The position numbers were made by a program, and so were the translations under genes. The notes beneath the pieces are model-generated. The model searched no databases and had not been told where the DNA came from. It saw only the letters and a program-made list of their open reading frames with translations. Below, piece by piece: positions 3,213 through 63,952 of a stretch of DNA of 64,000 bases (positions are counted from its first letter, which is position 1; each line of letters starts with the position of its first letter). Origin of the DNA: Bernardetiaceae bacterium (GTDB lineage Bacteria > Bacteroidota > Bacteroidia > Cytophagales > Bernardetiaceae); NCBI GenBank assembly GCA_020832465.1, contig JAFIER010000066.1:1-64000 (forward strand), written 5' to 3'.

Positions 3213-3354
3213 GGTAACTACTCAGGTCTTGGGGACTCGGTTTGTGTTTGGTGGAGAATTTTAGAAATAACATCTCTGGCAGAAATGTTATTTCTAAAAT
3301 TAAATAGCTTTTAAATACCTATGATACACACTTTTGAGTACCTGATTAGTTACC
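3213..3354. repeat. 142-bp element with 15-bp terminal inverted repeats
   Basis: The left end GGTAACTACTCAGGT and right end ACCTGATTAGTTACC are inverted repeats with one mismatch. Inside are half of the GTGTTTGG module of family 3 and a complete hairpin (ATTTTAGAAATAACAT with ATGTTATTTCTAAAAT). It therefore looks assembled from modules used in other families here. No coding capacity. Confidence 0.75.
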
Positions 3355-5205: not shown

Positions 5206-5290
5206 CATACTACTAGACCTTCGCTAGCCAGAAATAACATTTCTTTGAGAAATGTTAATTCTAAGCTATGGAAAAATGTATAGTAGTATG
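5206..5290 (+). repeat. Family 1 inverted-repeat element, short copy
   Basis: The 85-bp element starts CATACTACTAGAC and ends GTATAGTAGTATG (inverted). Between them are the CGCTAGCCAG linker, the hairpin GAAATAACATTTCTTTGAG with its partner arm, and CTATGGAAAAATG. The large CCATAGC palindrome of longer copies is missing. Confidence 0.8.
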
Positions 5291-16686: not shown

Positions 16687-16913
16687 ATTTTGTTTTTATT
16701 TTTTTGAAAAATGCTTAGCTTGCTTTTTTGCAAGTCGTAGGTTCAATAACTTTTATAGCTTATGATTTGTTTAACGCTTGGCAGACGTAAAAAACGCTCC
16801 TCTACTTAGCATCTTGCTAAGCATTTAGAATCTTATGAAAAAAATATGTCTAATTGAGACTGTATTCAAACTAAGTTAATACAAAGGCTGTACTTCAAAA
16901 CGGGCGTATGTCA

Positions 16914-16991
16914 GGTTGCTAAATCGGTTTAGATAGTTTCAGTGCTAACAGTTTTTCGAAAATTGTTAGTTATGGGCTAATTTAGCAAACC
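16914..16991. repeat. Family 2 inverted-repeat element
   Basis: The left end GGTTGCTAAATC and right end AATTTAGCAAACC are inverted repeats, with the hairpin AGTGCTAACAG...TTGTTAGTTATGG inside. It is related to 20441-20539. Confidence 0.65.
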
Positions 16992-17129
16992 ATGGCGAGA
17001 GGTGCATGAGCATTGTGCTACCGATTTAATATGAAATGTACTCCGCAAGACAAAGCTACACAACAAGAATTTTTTAACTAAAACATAGATAAGTAAGGCT
17101 ATAAAAAGAGCAACCCTTTTAGTGAATTA

Positions 17130-18598: not shown

Positions 18599-18709
18599 TG
18601 GGTGCAATTCAAAACTACGCGGTTTGTGTTTGGCGGGGACACCAAACACGGCGAGAGTAGTTATTTTAAGACAATAGCTTATGCTACTGAGTAAATATGA
18701 ATTGCAACC
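18599..18709 (+). repeat. Family 3 inverted-repeat element, copy A
   Basis: The left end GGTGCAATTCAAAACTAC and right end ATGAATTGCAACC are imperfect inverted repeats. Inside is the stem GTGTTTGG...CCAAACAC flanked by GCGGTTT and GGCGAG. It lies upstream of the TRAP permease. Confidence 0.75.
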
Positions 18710-20430: not shown

Positions 20431-20440
20431 GTGCTTCGCA

Positions 20441-20539
20441 GGTGCATCAAGTTTGGTAAAACGATTTAGGTAGCCTCCGAGCTAACAGTTTTACGAAAAC
20501 TGTCAGTTCGGAGCTAATTTAGCAAAGTTGTCGTACACC
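20441..20539. repeat. Family 2 inverted-repeat element
   Basis: It starts GGTGCATCAAGTTTGGTAAA and ends AATTTAGCAAAGTTGTCG then TACACC. Inside is a long hairpin (CTCCGAGCTAACAGTTTT with AAAACTGTCAGTTCGGAG). It follows the beta-propeller gene directly. Confidence 0.75.
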
Positions 20540-20590
20540 AATAGCGTAATTCCTAACTGGCATAATTTTTATTTTTTTGCGTATGCTTAT

Positions 20591-21397: not shown

Positions 21398-21470
21398 GGG
21401 TGTACGACAATTTTGCTAAATTATCTCGGAAATGACATTTCTGACAGAAATGTTACTTCTAAAAATTTGA
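21398..21470 (-). repeat. Family 2 element, one-ended copy
   Basis: It starts GGGTGTACGACAATTTTGCT and contains the hairpin GAAATGACATTTCTGACAG with its partner arm. On the minus strand it aligns with 55144-55213. The second terminal arm is not visible. Confidence 0.65.
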
Positions 21471-21489
21471 CATCTAATATCTTTAATGC

Positions 21490-21565
21490 CTGTAGTACGA
21501 AGCTCCAGCTTCGTTATAAGCCACTTCCGAAACTGGAGCTTCGGGCTACAGCTTTAAAAACTGTG
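21490..21565. repeat. GAAGCTCCAG hairpin element, copy A
   Basis: CTGTAGTACGAAGCTCCAG and CTGGAGCTTCGGGCTACAG are inverted arms around TTCGTTATAAGCCACTTCCG. Copy B at 55071-55135 lacks 15 bases of the left arm. Confidence 0.75.
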
Positions 21566-21704
21566 AGAGTTGCACCCCCCACACTATGGATAAATATATT
21601 GTGATATGGTTTGTACTACAAAATACCTAAACTTTGAGAAAGCTCAAAACTTTGTCAAAGTTTCATTAAATGATTAGCATACATCTTCAACACCAATTAA
21701 CATC

Positions 21705-26608: not shown

Positions 26609-26647
26609 ATTAAAACTAACAGTTTTCAAAAAACTGTTAGTTTTAAT
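26609..26647. terminator. Bidirectional terminator between the TAXI gene and purE
   Basis: ATTAAAACTAACAGTTTT and its perfect complement flank CAA. The stem is 18 bp, followed by TTTTATTACTTT, and lies between convergent genes ending at 26594 and 26652. Confidence 0.75.
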
Positions 26648-28208: not shown

Positions 28209-28632
28209 GCTTTGAAGTGATTTTCTTGTATGTGATAAAATGTTGAATGTATGGTTTTCCGATGCCCTCTTTTTTTTAAGGCGCAGGCATAACTCGATTT
28301 CAAAGTTAAGATATTTTTATAAAAAAAGTAAGTATTGCGCCATTTTTCCGCTATATATTCAAATAAACCATTGCAGATTTACTATCATAAGCCATACTAT
28401 TAGATATTTCCCAGATAGGAATGACATTTCTCAAAGAAATGTCGTTTCTAAGCCCATTTTTCCATAACGCTATGGAAAAATGTACAGTAGTATGATCATA
28501 AGCAGAAAATACAGCACTTTTTGGGCTACTTACATGCCCTTTTATAAATTATTGTTTACCTTTGCTCATATTGACAAAGCTCAAGACAAACAATACTTTT
28601 ACCTTTATTACCTTCAAATGTAAAATATAACT
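28209..28632. other. Divergent region between fabI and the exonuclease gene
   Basis: It contains a family 1 element (28393-28494). A palindromic stretch follows (ATTGTTT at 28551-28557 with AAACAAT at 28588-28594; CTTTG at 28560-28564 with CAAAG at 28575-28579) overlapping a TACCTTTG box. A TTG at 28571-28573 and TACTTTTA at 28594-28601, 20 bases apart, may be the exonuclease promoter. Confidence 0.45.
28393..28494 (+). repeat. Family 1 inverted-repeat element with shortened palindrome
   Basis: It starts CATACTATTAG and ends GTACAGTAGTATG. The hairpin reads GGAATGACATTTCT...AGAAATGTCGTTTCT. The large palindrome has shrunk to CCATAACGCTATGG, which suggests deletion of its centre. Confidence 0.8.
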
Positions 28633-35069: not shown

Positions 35070-35227
35070 CATTCAATTTGAGCAAGATTCGTACTGGATT
35101 TTACGTTTAATTTTAGAAATAACATTTCTGCCAGAAATGTTATTTCTAAAATTCGGTGCTCAATATCTATTATGGCCGTGTTTGGGGTCCCCACCAAACA
35201 CAAACCGCATAGTTTTGCATTGCACCC
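35070..35227 (-). repeat. Family 3 element, copy B, with an inserted hairpin
   Basis: On the minus strand it begins GGGTGCAATGCAAAACTATG and carries GCGGTTTGTGTTTGGTGGGG with CCAAACACGG, closely matching 18599-18709. A perfect hairpin (ATTTTAGAAATAACATTTCT with its complement, about 35114-35154) follows, then a weak right arm AAATTGAATGC. Confidence 0.72.
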
Positions 35228-37688: not shown

Positions 37689-37752
37689 GTGTGCATTTCA
37701 AAACTACTTAGTTGGTGTTTGGTGCGGACACCAAACACAGCGAATGCTACTA
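37689..37752 (+). repeat. Family 3 element, copy C
   Basis: GTGCATTTCAAAACTACTTAG, then GTGTTTGGTGCGGACACCAAACAC type stem and AGCGAATGCTACTAT. The right arm is weak. Confidence 0.65.
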
Positions 37753-38667: not shown

Positions 38668-39107
38668 AGCATCGTTATTTAGGTATTGTATTGTATTTTA
38701 GCAAATGTTTTTCACTGTATTTATGATTTGTCTTTGAACATAAATCTAAGATAATACAATCTTTTGTAAAAGCCAAAATTTGCGCCGCTTTGTATAAAAA
38801 CAAAAAAGCAAGACAAGAAAAAAAATGTGCAGGCGGTAATCTTCTTATTTTTCAGGGCACAAGTCATAGAAATAATATTTCTGAGATAATTTAGCAAAAT
38901 TGTCGTACACCCGCTGACTTCACTACAAACCCTACGCTATGGAAAAATGTATAGTGGTATGATTTTTTATGAACCTGCCCTGCTTTAATCATATAACTTT
39001 CTCTTATTTAAGGTTTGTTAAAAGTAAAAACTTTGTAGTTTGTGTGAATAGCTATTATATTTGTAGAAAATATGAGCAAACAATTTTATACACACACAAA
39101 AGCAATT
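38668..39107. other. Divergent region before icd
   Basis: It holds the right half of a family 1 element (ACGCTATGGAAAAATG to ATAGTGGTATG, ending 38961), fused to a family 2 end (AATTTAGCAAAATTGTCG at about 38888-38905, then TACACCC), and the icd promoter. No gene is seen. Confidence 0.6.
39032..39063 (+). promoter_or_regulatory. Promoter of icd
   Basis: TTTG at 39032-39035, 20 bases, TATATTTG at 39056-39063. Transcription should begin near 39070. The in-frame ATG at 39072 would then be almost leaderless, so the ATG at 39108 is favoured. Confidence 0.75.
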
Positions 39108-40829: not shown

Positions 40830-40931
40830 GGTAGTGTATAACAAGTAATGCTTAGAACTAACAGTTCTTTGAGAACTGTTAGTTTTGAAAGACTTTGAGC
40901 ATTACATCTTTAAGACTACCGCAATTCGTAT
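40830..40931. repeat. Nested hairpin element in a gene leader
   Basis: The outer arms are GCAATTCGGGTAGT and ACTACCGCAATTCG (imperfect). The middle arms are GTAATGCT and AGCATTAC (perfect). The inner hairpin is AACTAACAGTTCT-TTG-AGAACTGTTAGTT. Its inner module matches the other families; the outer ends are unique here. Confidence 0.65.
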
Positions 40932-47227: not shown

Positions 47228-47287
47228 CATACTAATAGACATTTTCTATTCAGAAATAACATTTCTGTCAGAAATGTTATTTCTATA
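47228..47287 (+). repeat. Family 1 element, left half
   Basis: CATACTAATAGACATTTT, then the perfect hairpin AGAAATAACATTTCT-GTC-AGAAATGTTATTTCT. The right half is replaced by a family 2 end (GATTTACCAACTTGACGTAC) at about 47304-47323. Confidence 0.65.
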
Positions 47288-47346
47288 AGTTCTGACACTA
47301 CCTAAGTCGATTTACCAACTTGACGTACACCCCAAAAACAATAAAT

Positions 47347-54842: not shown

Positions 54843-55070
54843 CAATTTACAAATAATAATTGAAATTCAAAACATAAAAACTCTAAAAAGTGAGAATTTA
54901 GCCTAAAAAATCAATGTAATAATTCAAACCCTAATATAACATTTTAAAAATCAAAATGCTTACGGCTAAAAATTACGCTTAAAGATTACCATCTTAGATA
55001 GCCCCGCTAAGAGTTCCGCCAAAACTTTTAGCAGGGGAGTACGGCAACTTGATATTTAATATTTGTGCGC

Positions 55071-55135
55071 CTGTAGTAACGAAGCAAGCCACTTCCAAAG
55101 TTGGAGCTTCGGGCTACAGTTTTTAGAAACTGTGA
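55071..55135. repeat. GAAGCTCCAG hairpin element, copy B
   Basis: CTGTAGTAACGAAGC, then AGCCACTTCC and GGAGCTTCGGGCTACAG. It matches 21490-21565 but lacks about 15 bases of the left arm. Confidence 0.65.
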
Positions 55136-55143
55136 AGGCTGAA

Positions 55144-55213
55144 ATTATCTCGGAAATAACATTTCTGAAAGATGTGTTATTTCTAAAAATTTAGCAAAAT
55201 TGTCATACACCCC
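55144..55213 (+). repeat. Family 2 element
   Basis: TTATCTCGGAAATAACATTT, the hairpin partner GTGTTATTTC, then AATTTAGCAAAATTGTCATA and CACCC. Homologous to the minus strand of 21398-21470. Confidence 0.65.
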
Positions 55214-59720: not shown

Positions 59721-59777
59721 TCTTAGAAATCATATATATCAAAGATTATCTCGTTTGTTTTTCTACATCATGCATAA

Positions 59778-59801
59778 GTGTTTGGCGCTGACACCAAACA
59801 C
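59778..59801. repeat. Family 3 stem, isolated
   Basis: GTGTTTGG and CCAAACAC around CGCTGACA. The flanks of the full family 3 elements are absent. Confidence 0.6.
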
Positions 59802-59881
59802 GGCAAGTTTTCTTGTATTATTTAAACGTGATAATGCCTATTAAAAAAAATTATTTCTGACTTACAATGCTTACCTACTTA

Positions 59882-61153: not shown

Positions 61154-63952
61154 ATGAGTTCAAATGAAGCTACAATGAACAAAGACAACATTATATCATA
61201 CCTACACCCCAAAACATTACGAGGACGCGTCGTGCTCGGATTTTTTGTGATTGCCATATCCGTAATCAGTGTGCTCGGATTTTACCTCGTGTATATGCAA
61301 AAGCAGGTGCTTTCGCAATATAACTATACTGTATATAACACAGTACCAACACGTTTTTATTGTAAAGTCATCGAAAACTGCATTACAGGCTCTACTAATG
61401 CCATGGATAACTATTTAGCCACCGACGAGGAAAGCCATCGTGATGAACGCAATGCAATATGGGAAGAGTGCCTAAATGCCATGGATTCACTCTCAAACTA
61501 CACAAACACTTGGAGAGAGGCTTCTGTTACAGCGCTTGTGTACGACGTAAGAATTAAAGCGAATAGACTTAGAGATAAGCAAAATCAAGTTGAAGAGCAA
61601 CATTTTAGGCTAAGAAGCAATCTAAGCGAAGAATCACGCTCTGAAAGAAGCAGGCAAGTAGGGCAAGTAAAAGTATTAGTCGACGATATTAAAGCCGTGT
61701 TAGACCTCATTGTCAATATTCAAAAAGAAGAGATTAATAGAACCCAAATGCAGATAGATCAAAATATCTATTTGCTTTATGGCACTATAACGCCCGTGAT
61801 CTTAGCCCTACTCATCTTACTTTTTGTTTATGTTGCCTATAAAATCAATAGCAGGCTTAGCTATCGCCTCGCAGTCTTGAATCATAACCTCAGTGAAATC
61901 AAAAAAGGCGAATTGCCTACTGTCAAAGAATACGAAAACGACGAAATTAGTGATGTACTCGAGCTTAGTAACGATATTACAGAAGACCTCAAAGAGCTCA
62001 AAAACTTTGCTATAGAAGTCGGTAAGAAAAATTTTGATACCCCTTTTAAAGCATTTGAAAAAGAAGGAGAACTCGGGCAAGCTTTTCATTATATGAGAGA
62101 TAGCCTCAAAAATATAGCCGAGAAGGATAAGAAAACCAATTGGGCTATATCGGGAGAAGCGTATTTTTCTAACCTATTACAAGAAAATACCAAAGACCTC
62201 GACGTGCTCTGCCAAAAATTTGTCAGTGCATTGATGCAATATGTCGATGCTAACCACGCCGCCATATATATCCTAAAAGAAAGCGGTAGCCATCAATGCC
62301 TCGAGCTTAAAGCTTGGTATGCCTATGACTATCAAAAAATTCAAGAAAAAACAATAGATATTGGTGAAGGACTTGTAGGGGAAGCCTACCGTGAAAAACG
62401 AAAAATACACCTACAGCACGTACCCGAAAACTTTATTAAAGTAAGCTCTGGATTAGGAGAAAGTACGCCCAGCTCTTTGCTTGTCCTGCCTATTAAATCC
62501 ATAGATAGAGTAGAAGGTGTATTAGAATTGGCTTCTTTCAAATCTTTAGAGCCGCATCAAATCGAGTTTATAGAGCGCGTTGTCGCAAGTTTCGCCTCAA
62601 GCGTCGTCTCTGTAAAAGTCGGTTTGCGCACACAGAGGTTACTGCAAGATGCACAAACACAAGCCGAGCAGCTGCGTTCGCAAGAAGAGGAAATGAGACA
62701 AAATATGGAAGAGTTGCAGGCTACACAAGAAGAAATGCAACGCAAACAGCAAGAACTTGAAGCAGCAAAAATAACATTAGAATCTAATGAAGCTGTATTG
62801 CAACAAGCACTTGCTAAAGCTAAACAAAACGAAGCTGAAAATAAAAAATTATTGAGAGATGCCCAAATGAGAGAAGAGCAGTTGCGTGCACAAGAGGAAG
62901 AAATGAGGCAGAACATGGAAGAATTGCAAGCTACACAAGAAGAGATGCAACGAAAGCAACAAGAAATTCAAAAAGCGAAGCAAGCACTTGAAATCAACGA
63001 GCAAATATTACAAAAAGCATTACAGAAATCTAAGAAAGGTGAGGCTGAAAACAAAAAACTCTTGCAAGAAGCGCAGGAGCAAGCCGAGCAGTTGCGTGCA
63101 CAAGAGGAAGAAATGAGGCAAAACATGGAAGAGTTGCAAGCCACACAAGAGGAGCTCTACAGAAAGCAACAAGCCGAAGAGAAAAAAGCAAGGCAACTCG
63201 CTGCTAACGAAGGAATTCTTCAAAAAGCACTCGAAAGAGCAAGAGAAAAAGATATCGAGAACAAAAAACTCTTACAAGAAGCGCAGGAGCAAGCCGAGCA
63301 GTTGCGTGCACAAGAGGAAGAAATGAGGCAAAACATGGAAGAGTTGCAAGCTACACAAGAGGAGCTCTACAGAAAGCAACAAGCCGAAGAGAAAAAAGCA
63401 AGGCAACTCGCTGCTAACGAAGGAATTCTTAAAAAAGCACTCGAAAGAGCAAGAGAAAAAGATATCGAAAACAAAAAACTCTTACAAGAAGCGCAGCAGC
63501 AAGCCGAGCAGCTGCGTGCGCAAGAAGAAGAAATGAGGCAGAACATGGAAGAATTGCAAGCCACACAAGAGGAGCTTAATAGAAAGCAGCAAGCCGAAGA
63601 GAAAAAAGCTAAGAAACTCGTAGCTAATGAAGTTATACTTAAAAAAGCACTCGAAAGAGCTAGTCAAAAAGACATTGAAAATAGAAAGCTACTTCAAGAA
63701 ACGCAAATGCAAGCCGAGCAGCTGCGCGCGCAAGAAGAAGAAATGAGGCAAAACCTCGAAGAGCTACAAGCTACACAAGAAGCTATGCAAGAGCGACAAA
63801 ACGAAATCAATAAAGTTAAATCAAGGCTTGAAGCCAACGAAAAAATATTGCTTAAGAAAATTCAGCAATACAAAAGCAAAGACGAGTTGCTCAAAGCCAA
63901 AGAACAAGAAGTTCAACAACTCAAAGCAGAACTCGATAAGTACAAAAAATAA
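61154..63952 (+). CDS. Membrane sensor: HAMP, GAF and a 70-residue-repeat coiled coil
   Basis: The 932-aa protein has membrane helices near 28-48 (FFVIAISVISVLGFYLVY) and 204-230 (IYLLYGTITPVILALLILLF), with a 155-residue extracytoplasmic four-helix-type domain between. A HAMP-like linker follows (about 231-285), then a GAF domain (about 349-490: QYVDANHAAIYILKESGSH, IDIGEGLVGEAYREKRKIHL, LVLPIKSIDRVEGVLELASF). From residue 505 to the end it is pure coiled coil built of 70-residue repeats (EQLRAQEEEMRQNMEELQAT). In relatives one such unit usually leads into a PAS or kinase; here there is no output domain. It probably signals by contact with partners. Confidence 0.88.
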   Translation: MSSNEATMNKDNIISYLHPKTLRGRVVLGFFVIAISVISVLGFYLVYMQKQVLSQYNYTVYNTVPTRFYCKVIENCITGSTNAMDNYLATDEESHRDERNAIWEECLNAMDSLSNYTNTWREASVTALVYDVRIKANRLRDKQNQVEEQHFRLRSNLSEESRSERSRQVGQVKVLVDDIKAVLDLIVNIQKEEINRTQMQIDQNIYLLYGTITPVILALLILLFVYVAYKINSRLSYRLAVLNHNLSEIKKGELPTVKEYENDEISDVLELSNDITEDLKELKNFAIEVGKKNFDTPFKAFEKEGELGQAFHYMRDSLKNIAEKDKKTNWAISGEAYFSNLLQENTKDLDVLCQKFVSALMQYVDANHAAIYILKESGSHQCLELKAWYAYDYQKIQEKTIDIGEGLVGEAYREKRKIHLQHVPENFIKVSSGLGESTPSSLLVLPIKSIDRVEGVLELASFKSLEPHQIEFIERVVASFASSVVSVKVGLRTQRLLQDAQTQAEQLRSQEEEMRQNMEELQATQEEMQRKQQELEAAKITLESNEAVLQQALAKAKQNEAENKKLLRDAQMREEQLRAQEEEMRQNMEELQATQEEMQRKQQEIQKAKQALEINEQILQKALQKSKKGEAENKKLLQEAQEQAEQLRAQEEEMRQNMEELQATQEELYRKQQAEEKKARQLAANEGILQKALERAREKDIENKKLLQEAQEQAEQLRAQEEEMRQNMEELQATQEELYRKQQAEEKKARQLAANEGILKKALERAREKDIENKKLLQEAQQQAEQLRAQEEEMRQNMEELQATQEELNRKQQAEEKKAKKLVANEVILKKALERASQKDIENRKLLQETQMQAEQLRAQEEEMRQNLEELQATQEAMQERQNEINKVKSRLEANEKILLKKIQQYKSKDELLKAKEQEVQQLKAELDKYKK
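62666..63856. repeat. 210-bp tandem repeat, five full units and a partial sixth
   Basis: Units begin at 62666, 62876, 63086, 63296, 63506 and 63716, each encoding EQLR(A/S)QEEEMRQN. Units 3 and 4 differ at only about four positions, so their duplication is recent; units 1 and 6 are the most diverged. Confidence 0.9.

Follow-up and report, generated by a model that had tools for sequence, protein, structure and literature searches.

In the draft genome of a Bernardetiaceae bacterium, family 2, a set of MITE-like elements with two different ends, shares a core hairpin (H) with two other MITE families, family 1 and F3, which are separate from it, and H is at the same time an independent repeat, more than a part of the three families. 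Ends and cores are partly linked, falling short of both strict linkage and independence. Cores are exchanged, for the most part after insertion and with dead elements as the usual outcome. We consider it likely, with some reservation, that family 2 was moved in trans, that the three families share a palindrome captured from the host, where it acted as a terminator, and that chimeras arose via the H arms. These repeats form new MITE families, the general kind being known; what is unusual is a single hairpin across different transposition systems. The preliminary description was made from the window, that is, the whole 64,000-nucleotide stretch analysed (contig JAFIER010000066.1, positions 1 to 64,000), and had reported one type of end at six places, combined with the inner hairpin of family 1 as if cores could be exchanged.

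Family 2 elements and their two ends

The right end of family 2 is AATTTAGCAAARTTGTCGTACACCC and the left end is GGGTGTACGTCAAGTTGGTAAATC; read inward, the right end becomes GGGTGTACGACAAYTTTGCTAAATT, which is related to the left end yet distinct from it. Terminal inverted repeats are present, GGGTGTACG(T/A)CAA being common to both ends, which diverge further in. Across the draft genome (4,603,893 bases in 289 contigs), the right-end pattern TAGCAAAATTGTCGTACACC was found at 192 places with at most 3 mismatches and the left-end pattern GGGTGTACGTCAAGTTGGTAAA at 209 places, with 0 matches in the reversed control in either case. In the window, 9 matches to TTGTCGTACACC with at most 2 mismatches were obtained versus 2.03 expected, and 0 of 100 shuffles got to 9. 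Exact matches lie at 20528, 21399 (minus strand) and 38900; those at 47320 and 55200 have one mismatch, and at 16914 there is none within 2 mismatches.

Target duplications were analysed in a 1.19-Mb sample (26% of the genome), which was picked partly from contigs with family 2 matches; its counts therefore cannot be taken as a rate for the whole genome. An 8-bp target duplication with at least 7 of 8 positions alike flanked 42 of the 65 left-right pairs of family 2 and was perfect in 27, compared with 0.27% of random flank pairs at the same threshold. Single elements are short, about 60 to 310 bp (62-306 bp), with approximately 200 places per end; anatomy and sizes were taken from 44 pairs of an earlier, smaller set, in which one longer row is a tandem segment. 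The elements are non-coding, and a transposase gene would not fit inside them. Those with a duplication combine fixed ends with variable core modules in the layouts A, C, AC, C3 or none: A in 10 pairs, C in 4, A plus C in 11 and A with C3 in 6, the remainder carrying C3 without H (6), neither (4) or an unclassified core with C3 (one). The C3 module (CTGTAGCCCGAAGCTCCAGCTTCGG..CGAAGCTGGAGCTTCGTACTACAGG) is a further hairpin of many family 2 elements and is found in the window at 21470-21560 and 55070-55135, the copy at 55 kb being inverted. One family 2 element elsewhere (L053, 1501-1620) has three hairpin arms in series, as if the core unit had been amplified.

The window holds the following sites:

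20439..20540, plus strand: family 2 element with a decayed left end (CAGGTGCATCAAGTTTGGTAAAACGATTTAG), a CTAACAG-type hairpin and an intact right end
20478..20510, no strand: core hairpin H, C type, of the preceding element
20516..20540, minus strand: right end of family 2 in the same element
16902..17004, plus strand: family 2 element with a left end (4 mismatches), a C-type hairpin (16941-16973) and a decayed right end (end coordinate by eye)
21398..21608, minus strand: mixed-end element with a family 2 right end, H and the C3 module, then a decayed family 1 end
38888..38912, plus strand: family 2 right end, adjoining a family 1 remnant with its end at 38961
47228..47332, minus strand: mixed-end element with a family 1 end, H (47252-47284) and a family 2 left end; target duplication absent
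55034..55212, plus strand: right-to-right-like element with a family 2 right end at 55212, right-end-like sequence at ~55034 and C3 inverted, by eye
5206..5290, no strand: family 1 element with an H core and the 9-bp duplication TGTAAAAAC
28393..28494, no strand: family 1 element with an H core and the 9-bp duplication ATCATAAGC
40830..40920, plus strand: F3 element of 91 bp with a C-type core and the 8-bp duplication GCAATTCG
35115..35147, no strand: solo core hairpin, family ends absent
26612..26644, no strand: solo core hairpin AAAACTAACAGTTTT..AAAACTGTTAGTTTT, the nearest form to the sister-genus terminators
3263..3295, no strand: solo core hairpin

Thus, the repeat seen at the six places (16914, 20441, 21398, 38888, 47304 and 55144) is real and above chance, but two different ends had been merged into one: 47304, listed among places with TTGTCGTACACC-like ends, is a left end and not a right end. 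Likewise, copies or half copies had been listed there, but only 16902 to ~17004 and ~20439 to 20540 hold both a left and a right end, one of them decayed in each case, and neither showed a clear duplication when read by eye. The places 21398, 38888 and 55144 are right ends; the first of these and 47304 belong to mixed-end elements, the second adjoins a family 1 remnant and the third looks right-to-right. As DNA, the element at 20439..20540 folds with -21.6 kcal/mol (z -6.2). The flanks of 21398..21608 are GTTTGTAA and GTTTGTAC, 7 of 8 positions alike.

The right-end pattern was absent from 58 relatives, 10 of them of the same family, and an exact right-end search of 84,980 species genomes, a set that may omit near relatives, gave 0 matches. 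Literature searches, run without the name of the organism, gave no account of these repeats, which is weak evidence that they are unpublished.

One hairpin in three families and alone

H is a 33-nt palindrome, AGAAATAACATTTCTnnnAGAAATGTTATTTCT or AGAACTAACAGTTCTnnnAGAACTGTTAGTTCT plus intermediates. The 1.19-Mb sample contained 476 copies (reversed control, 1), and a looser pattern matched at 799 places genome-wide (control, 0). After 8 cores near a locus edge had been dropped, 468 were used; for pairing counts, 28 that were not exactly 33 nt long were also left aside. In the remaining 440 cores, 555 of 6600 arm cells were mispaired compared with a shuffle mean of 1286, and the arms of H therefore vary together. 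Among the 468 cores, 56 lie between the two family 1 sides and 22 directly between the two family 2 ends; family 2 elements with two hairpins account for 19 + 19 and F3 for 37, and the 156 cores termed solo H lack a family module on both sides. Outer stems of at least 5 bp beyond the 33-mer were present in 57 of the 156 solo copies versus ~8 in the shuffle, with a sequence that differs among many copies. Around solo H, no direct repeats were found beyond the palindrome itself.

Family 1 (ends CATACTACTATACATT) measures 73 to 134 bp and is found both without H (73 bp) and with H (102-122 bp). Its end pattern is loose, with 369 matches and 167 in the reversed control; a strict table of ends with at most 16% mismatch, given below, meets this concern. 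A 9-bp duplication with at least 8 of 9 positions alike was detected in 28 of 60 family 1 pairs, and none at 8 bp; it therefore uses another transposition system than family 2 does. The third family, F3, which had escaped the preliminary description, runs from GGTAGTGTATAAC to GGTAGTCTTAAAG over 91 bp in nearly identical copies, with an 8-bp duplication in 31 of 39 pairs; it is probably the most recently active of the families. With both ends at no more than 16% mismatch, duplications were found in 38 of 54 pairs of family 2, 20 of 31 of family 1 and 31 of 39 of F3, and random flanks gave 0.27% and 0.11% in the duplication test. The proposal that the ends at the six places form a family apart from family 1 is borne out by these 8-bp versus 9-bp duplications.

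A core hairpin common to families 1 and 2 was also correctly recognised, and versions of it occur in all three families. The inner hairpin belongs to the same superfamily, but its subtype is not always the one of family 1: the copies at 16914 and 20441 are CTAACAG, whereas family 1 mostly has ATAACAT. Arm types A and C were counted as 119:8 in family 1, 64:46 in family 2 and 0:40 in F3 (chi2 124, p 1e-27), and the loop CTCAAAG was present in 83/136, 7/113 and 40/40 cores, respectively, and in 26/140 solo copies. Because arm type and loop are biased by family, assortment is not independent. Thus, when end type and core type are compared, as had been proposed, strict linkage fails, but so does independence.

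The cores had been thought exchangeable, and cross-family joins do exist, with modules of two families on opposite sides of 12 of the 468 cores. However, mixed-end pairs almost never carry a duplication: among 20 such pairs, only 21398-21608 has a possible 8-bp one (7/8, with a poor family 1 end), compared with 101 of 164 same-family pairs (Fisher p 7e-7). When both ends had at most 16% mismatch, the duplication was seen in 0 of 7 mixed family 1-family 2 pairs versus 89 of 124 same-family pairs, and it was absent from the single right-to-right pair in this set. Mixed-end pairs were therefore mostly formed after insertion and not moved as units. A swapped interior can nevertheless exist between functional ends, the swap having preceded or followed the move. 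In L093 (6300-6456), family 1 ends with a duplication of 8/9 enclose a piece of a family 2 left end, and in L119 (8410-8529) family 2 ends with a duplication of 7/8 enclose a family 1 piece.

Origin of the hairpin

Genes in this genome were called with a simple longest-ORF script. A facing stop codon lay within 40 nt of 56 of 144 solo H copies, whereas intergenic points picked at random gave 16%; the counts were 33/121 for family 1, 5/100 for family 2 and 3/35 for F3. Runs of at least 8 T in 12 nt accompanied 33 of 156 solo copies versus 6 of 300 MITE-borne ones (family 2, 2/121; family 1, 4/139; F3, 0/40). Clear copies of H were found in one other genome of the family, that of a sister genus, which has 10 (control, 0); one further genome of the family had a single weak match inside a gene. 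All 10 sister-genus copies follow a gene end at a distance of no more than 85 nt; several lie between convergent genes, and 2 of the 10 overlap a short predicted ORF. In 6 of 10, at least 5 of the 8 nt after the hairpin are T, and mostly A-runs precede it (distances and T-runs were read off the listing). By these sequence features, the sister-genus copies look like bidirectional intrinsic terminators, and they may represent the ancestral state, as judged from one genome and 10 copies. For MITE-borne H, T-runs are mostly missing and there is no G-U excess, and termination is thus no more than a candidate function. In tandem gene contexts, sense-strand mispairs comprised 70 G-U versus 77 A-C; G-U is not above A-C, and there is thus no sign of selection at the RNA level.

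Under the explanation that we favour, H would originally have served the host lineage as a bidirectional intrinsic terminator, and each MITE family would have captured it, H then diverging along with its family. A transposase acting in trans and generating 8-bp duplications would mobilise family 2. Template switching at hairpins is a recognised process. When two copies of H meet as DNA is replicated or repaired, a switch of strand within their near-identical arms could join halves of different elements; a chimera with matching outer ends could move, and any other would be a dead relic. The hairpin may give its carrier a block on transcription into or out of the element. A bolder extension, which we put forward only tentatively and think rather doubtful, is that the host terminator palindrome is the shared cargo of several unrelated transposition systems, to mutual gain, and the crossover point at which they trade interiors. 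If this were so, the MITE families would gain insulated ends and harmless intergenic insertions, and the palindrome several independent routes of spread.

The same data could also be read as common descent, a possibility that deserves weight although we think it unlikely. A single ancestral MITE would already have contained the hairpin, its ends would have diverged or been replaced, the cores would never have been exchanged and solo H would be what remains of elements with decayed ends. The tight tie between core subtype and end family agrees with this, as do the 8-bp duplications of both family 2 and F3 and a faint likeness of their ends by eye (GTGTA..CAAGT). However, the duplications of family 1 are 9 bp long, and 156 of 468 cores lie outside all families, closer to stop codons than the cores of any of the three. 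Furthermore, solo copies have complementary outer stems of their own (at least 5 bp in 57/156 versus ~8 shuffled), and H is present in a sister genus where the search for the right end of family 2 gave no match.

Movement of the palindrome itself is less probable still. H would then be a mobile element that inserts into MITEs and other sites, such as a REP that has a Y1 (RAYT) transposase as its mover, in keeping with its high copy number, its solo copies and the existence of family 1 both with and without it. Yet the direct-repeat signature is absent around solo H beyond the palindrome, and no fixed tag adjoins the hairpin. The draft genome has three Y1 transposase genes (L171, L172 and L173), each flanked by other short palindromes, CACCCC..GGGGTT-like by eye; with 0 of 3 flanked by H, they were rejected as its movers. 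Finally, the H arms are very improbable as a DNA uptake signal whose paired copies serve as terminators, as in Neisseria and Pasteurellaceae: an ~11-nt word does occur in paired inverted copies at over 700 places, with solo copies near gene ends, but single words are rare in genes (ATAACATTTCT, 14 in ORFs versus 302 intergenic; CTAACAGTTCT, 2 versus 129), two words are interchangeable and the arms vary.

Transposases, known repeat systems and other repeats

Insertion-sequence families have characteristic lengths of the target duplication and forms of the ends. As partner transposases, IS1595, IS4/IS5-type, IS1, IS256, ISL3 and IS6/IS240 families were sought in the whole draft genome. It had no matches to PF12762, PF00872, PF01610 or PF13610. 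The one match to PF03400 (IS1) was false; judged by eye, it was a reading artefact in an apparent spike-protein region. Three PF01609 (DDE_Tnp_1) genes were unrelated or had no matching ends in sight, detailed inspection covering the one on C207. No insertion sequence with matching ends was found in the draft genome, nor any long pair with a duplication save one: in this family 2 pair the duplication is perfect, but the pair is a segment repeated in tandem about two genes and not an insertion sequence. In L113 (11228-12713), a segment repeat contains GTCTGTTC four times, three copies adjoining left ends of family 2; the copies surround a small pair of genes that resembles a VapBC-type module. 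The partner transposase is either lost, in a gap of the draft or of another family than those sought. MITEs often lack an autonomous partner, and we therefore do not hold its absence to exclude MITE status.

Several known systems are similar in part. BOX, RUP and SPRITE of Streptococcus pneumoniae are, in the part of the published account drawn on here, MITE-like families of a single genome that are described as separate repeats. BOX is built of modules, with core copies that vary; terminal inverted repeats and target duplications are found in both BOX and RUP; and SPRITE is a hairpin that resembles a terminator and lies close to the 3' ends of genes (PMC3049150). The likeness, one of design only, lies in several MITE-like families per genome, modular cores and a terminator-like hairpin, whereas the three families described here differ in their ends and in duplication length yet have one common hairpin that also occurs alone. 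TIMEs, miniature elements derived from Tn3 with its 38-bp ends, 5- or 6-bp duplications and interiors made of genes, likewise combine constant ends with exchangeable interior modules, and hybrids are described; in the portion of that report considered here, however, hairpin cores are not shared between unrelated end types (PMC4133298). The uptake-signal terminators of Neisseria and Pasteurellaceae, as far as the passages used describe them, also pair a short word in inverted copies and form terminators at very many genes (PMC1852404), whereas the word found here is rarely single in genes and is carried in MITEs. REP/BIME systems with RAYT, again according to a partial account, comprise hundreds of short palindromes in mosaic arrangements (PMC2817692); here, in contrast, H is unlinked to Y1 genes and MITE ends with target duplications are present.

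Bacterial MITEs are usually handled family by family, by their ends, whereas here three families that differ in their target duplications have one hairpin in common, which also exists in hundreds of free copies and, in a sister genus, looks like plain terminators. The genome thus offers a natural test of the origin and exchange of MITE interiors and of whether MITEs spread transcription terminators. It also carries a warning, in that clustering such repeats by whole sequence would mix families.

The window encodes GldG and PorZ, that is, gliding and type IX secretion genes, which place the organism in Bacteroidota; it had 0 Rfam matches at gathering score. The window contains other repeats as well. 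A direct tandem repeat of ~210 bp in five to six copies (62627-63851) lies in or near a long ORF (61154-63952). Another repeat, ACCATCGGGCGGGTCTCACGACCACTTCCGAGGTTTT, is located at 193-239, 1446-1492 and 2158-2204, beside three ORFs of like size, and recurs in L113 and L171, and another hairpin family, GTGTTTGGCGGGGACACCAAACAC, is represented at 18602-18654, 37691-37743 and 59754-59806.
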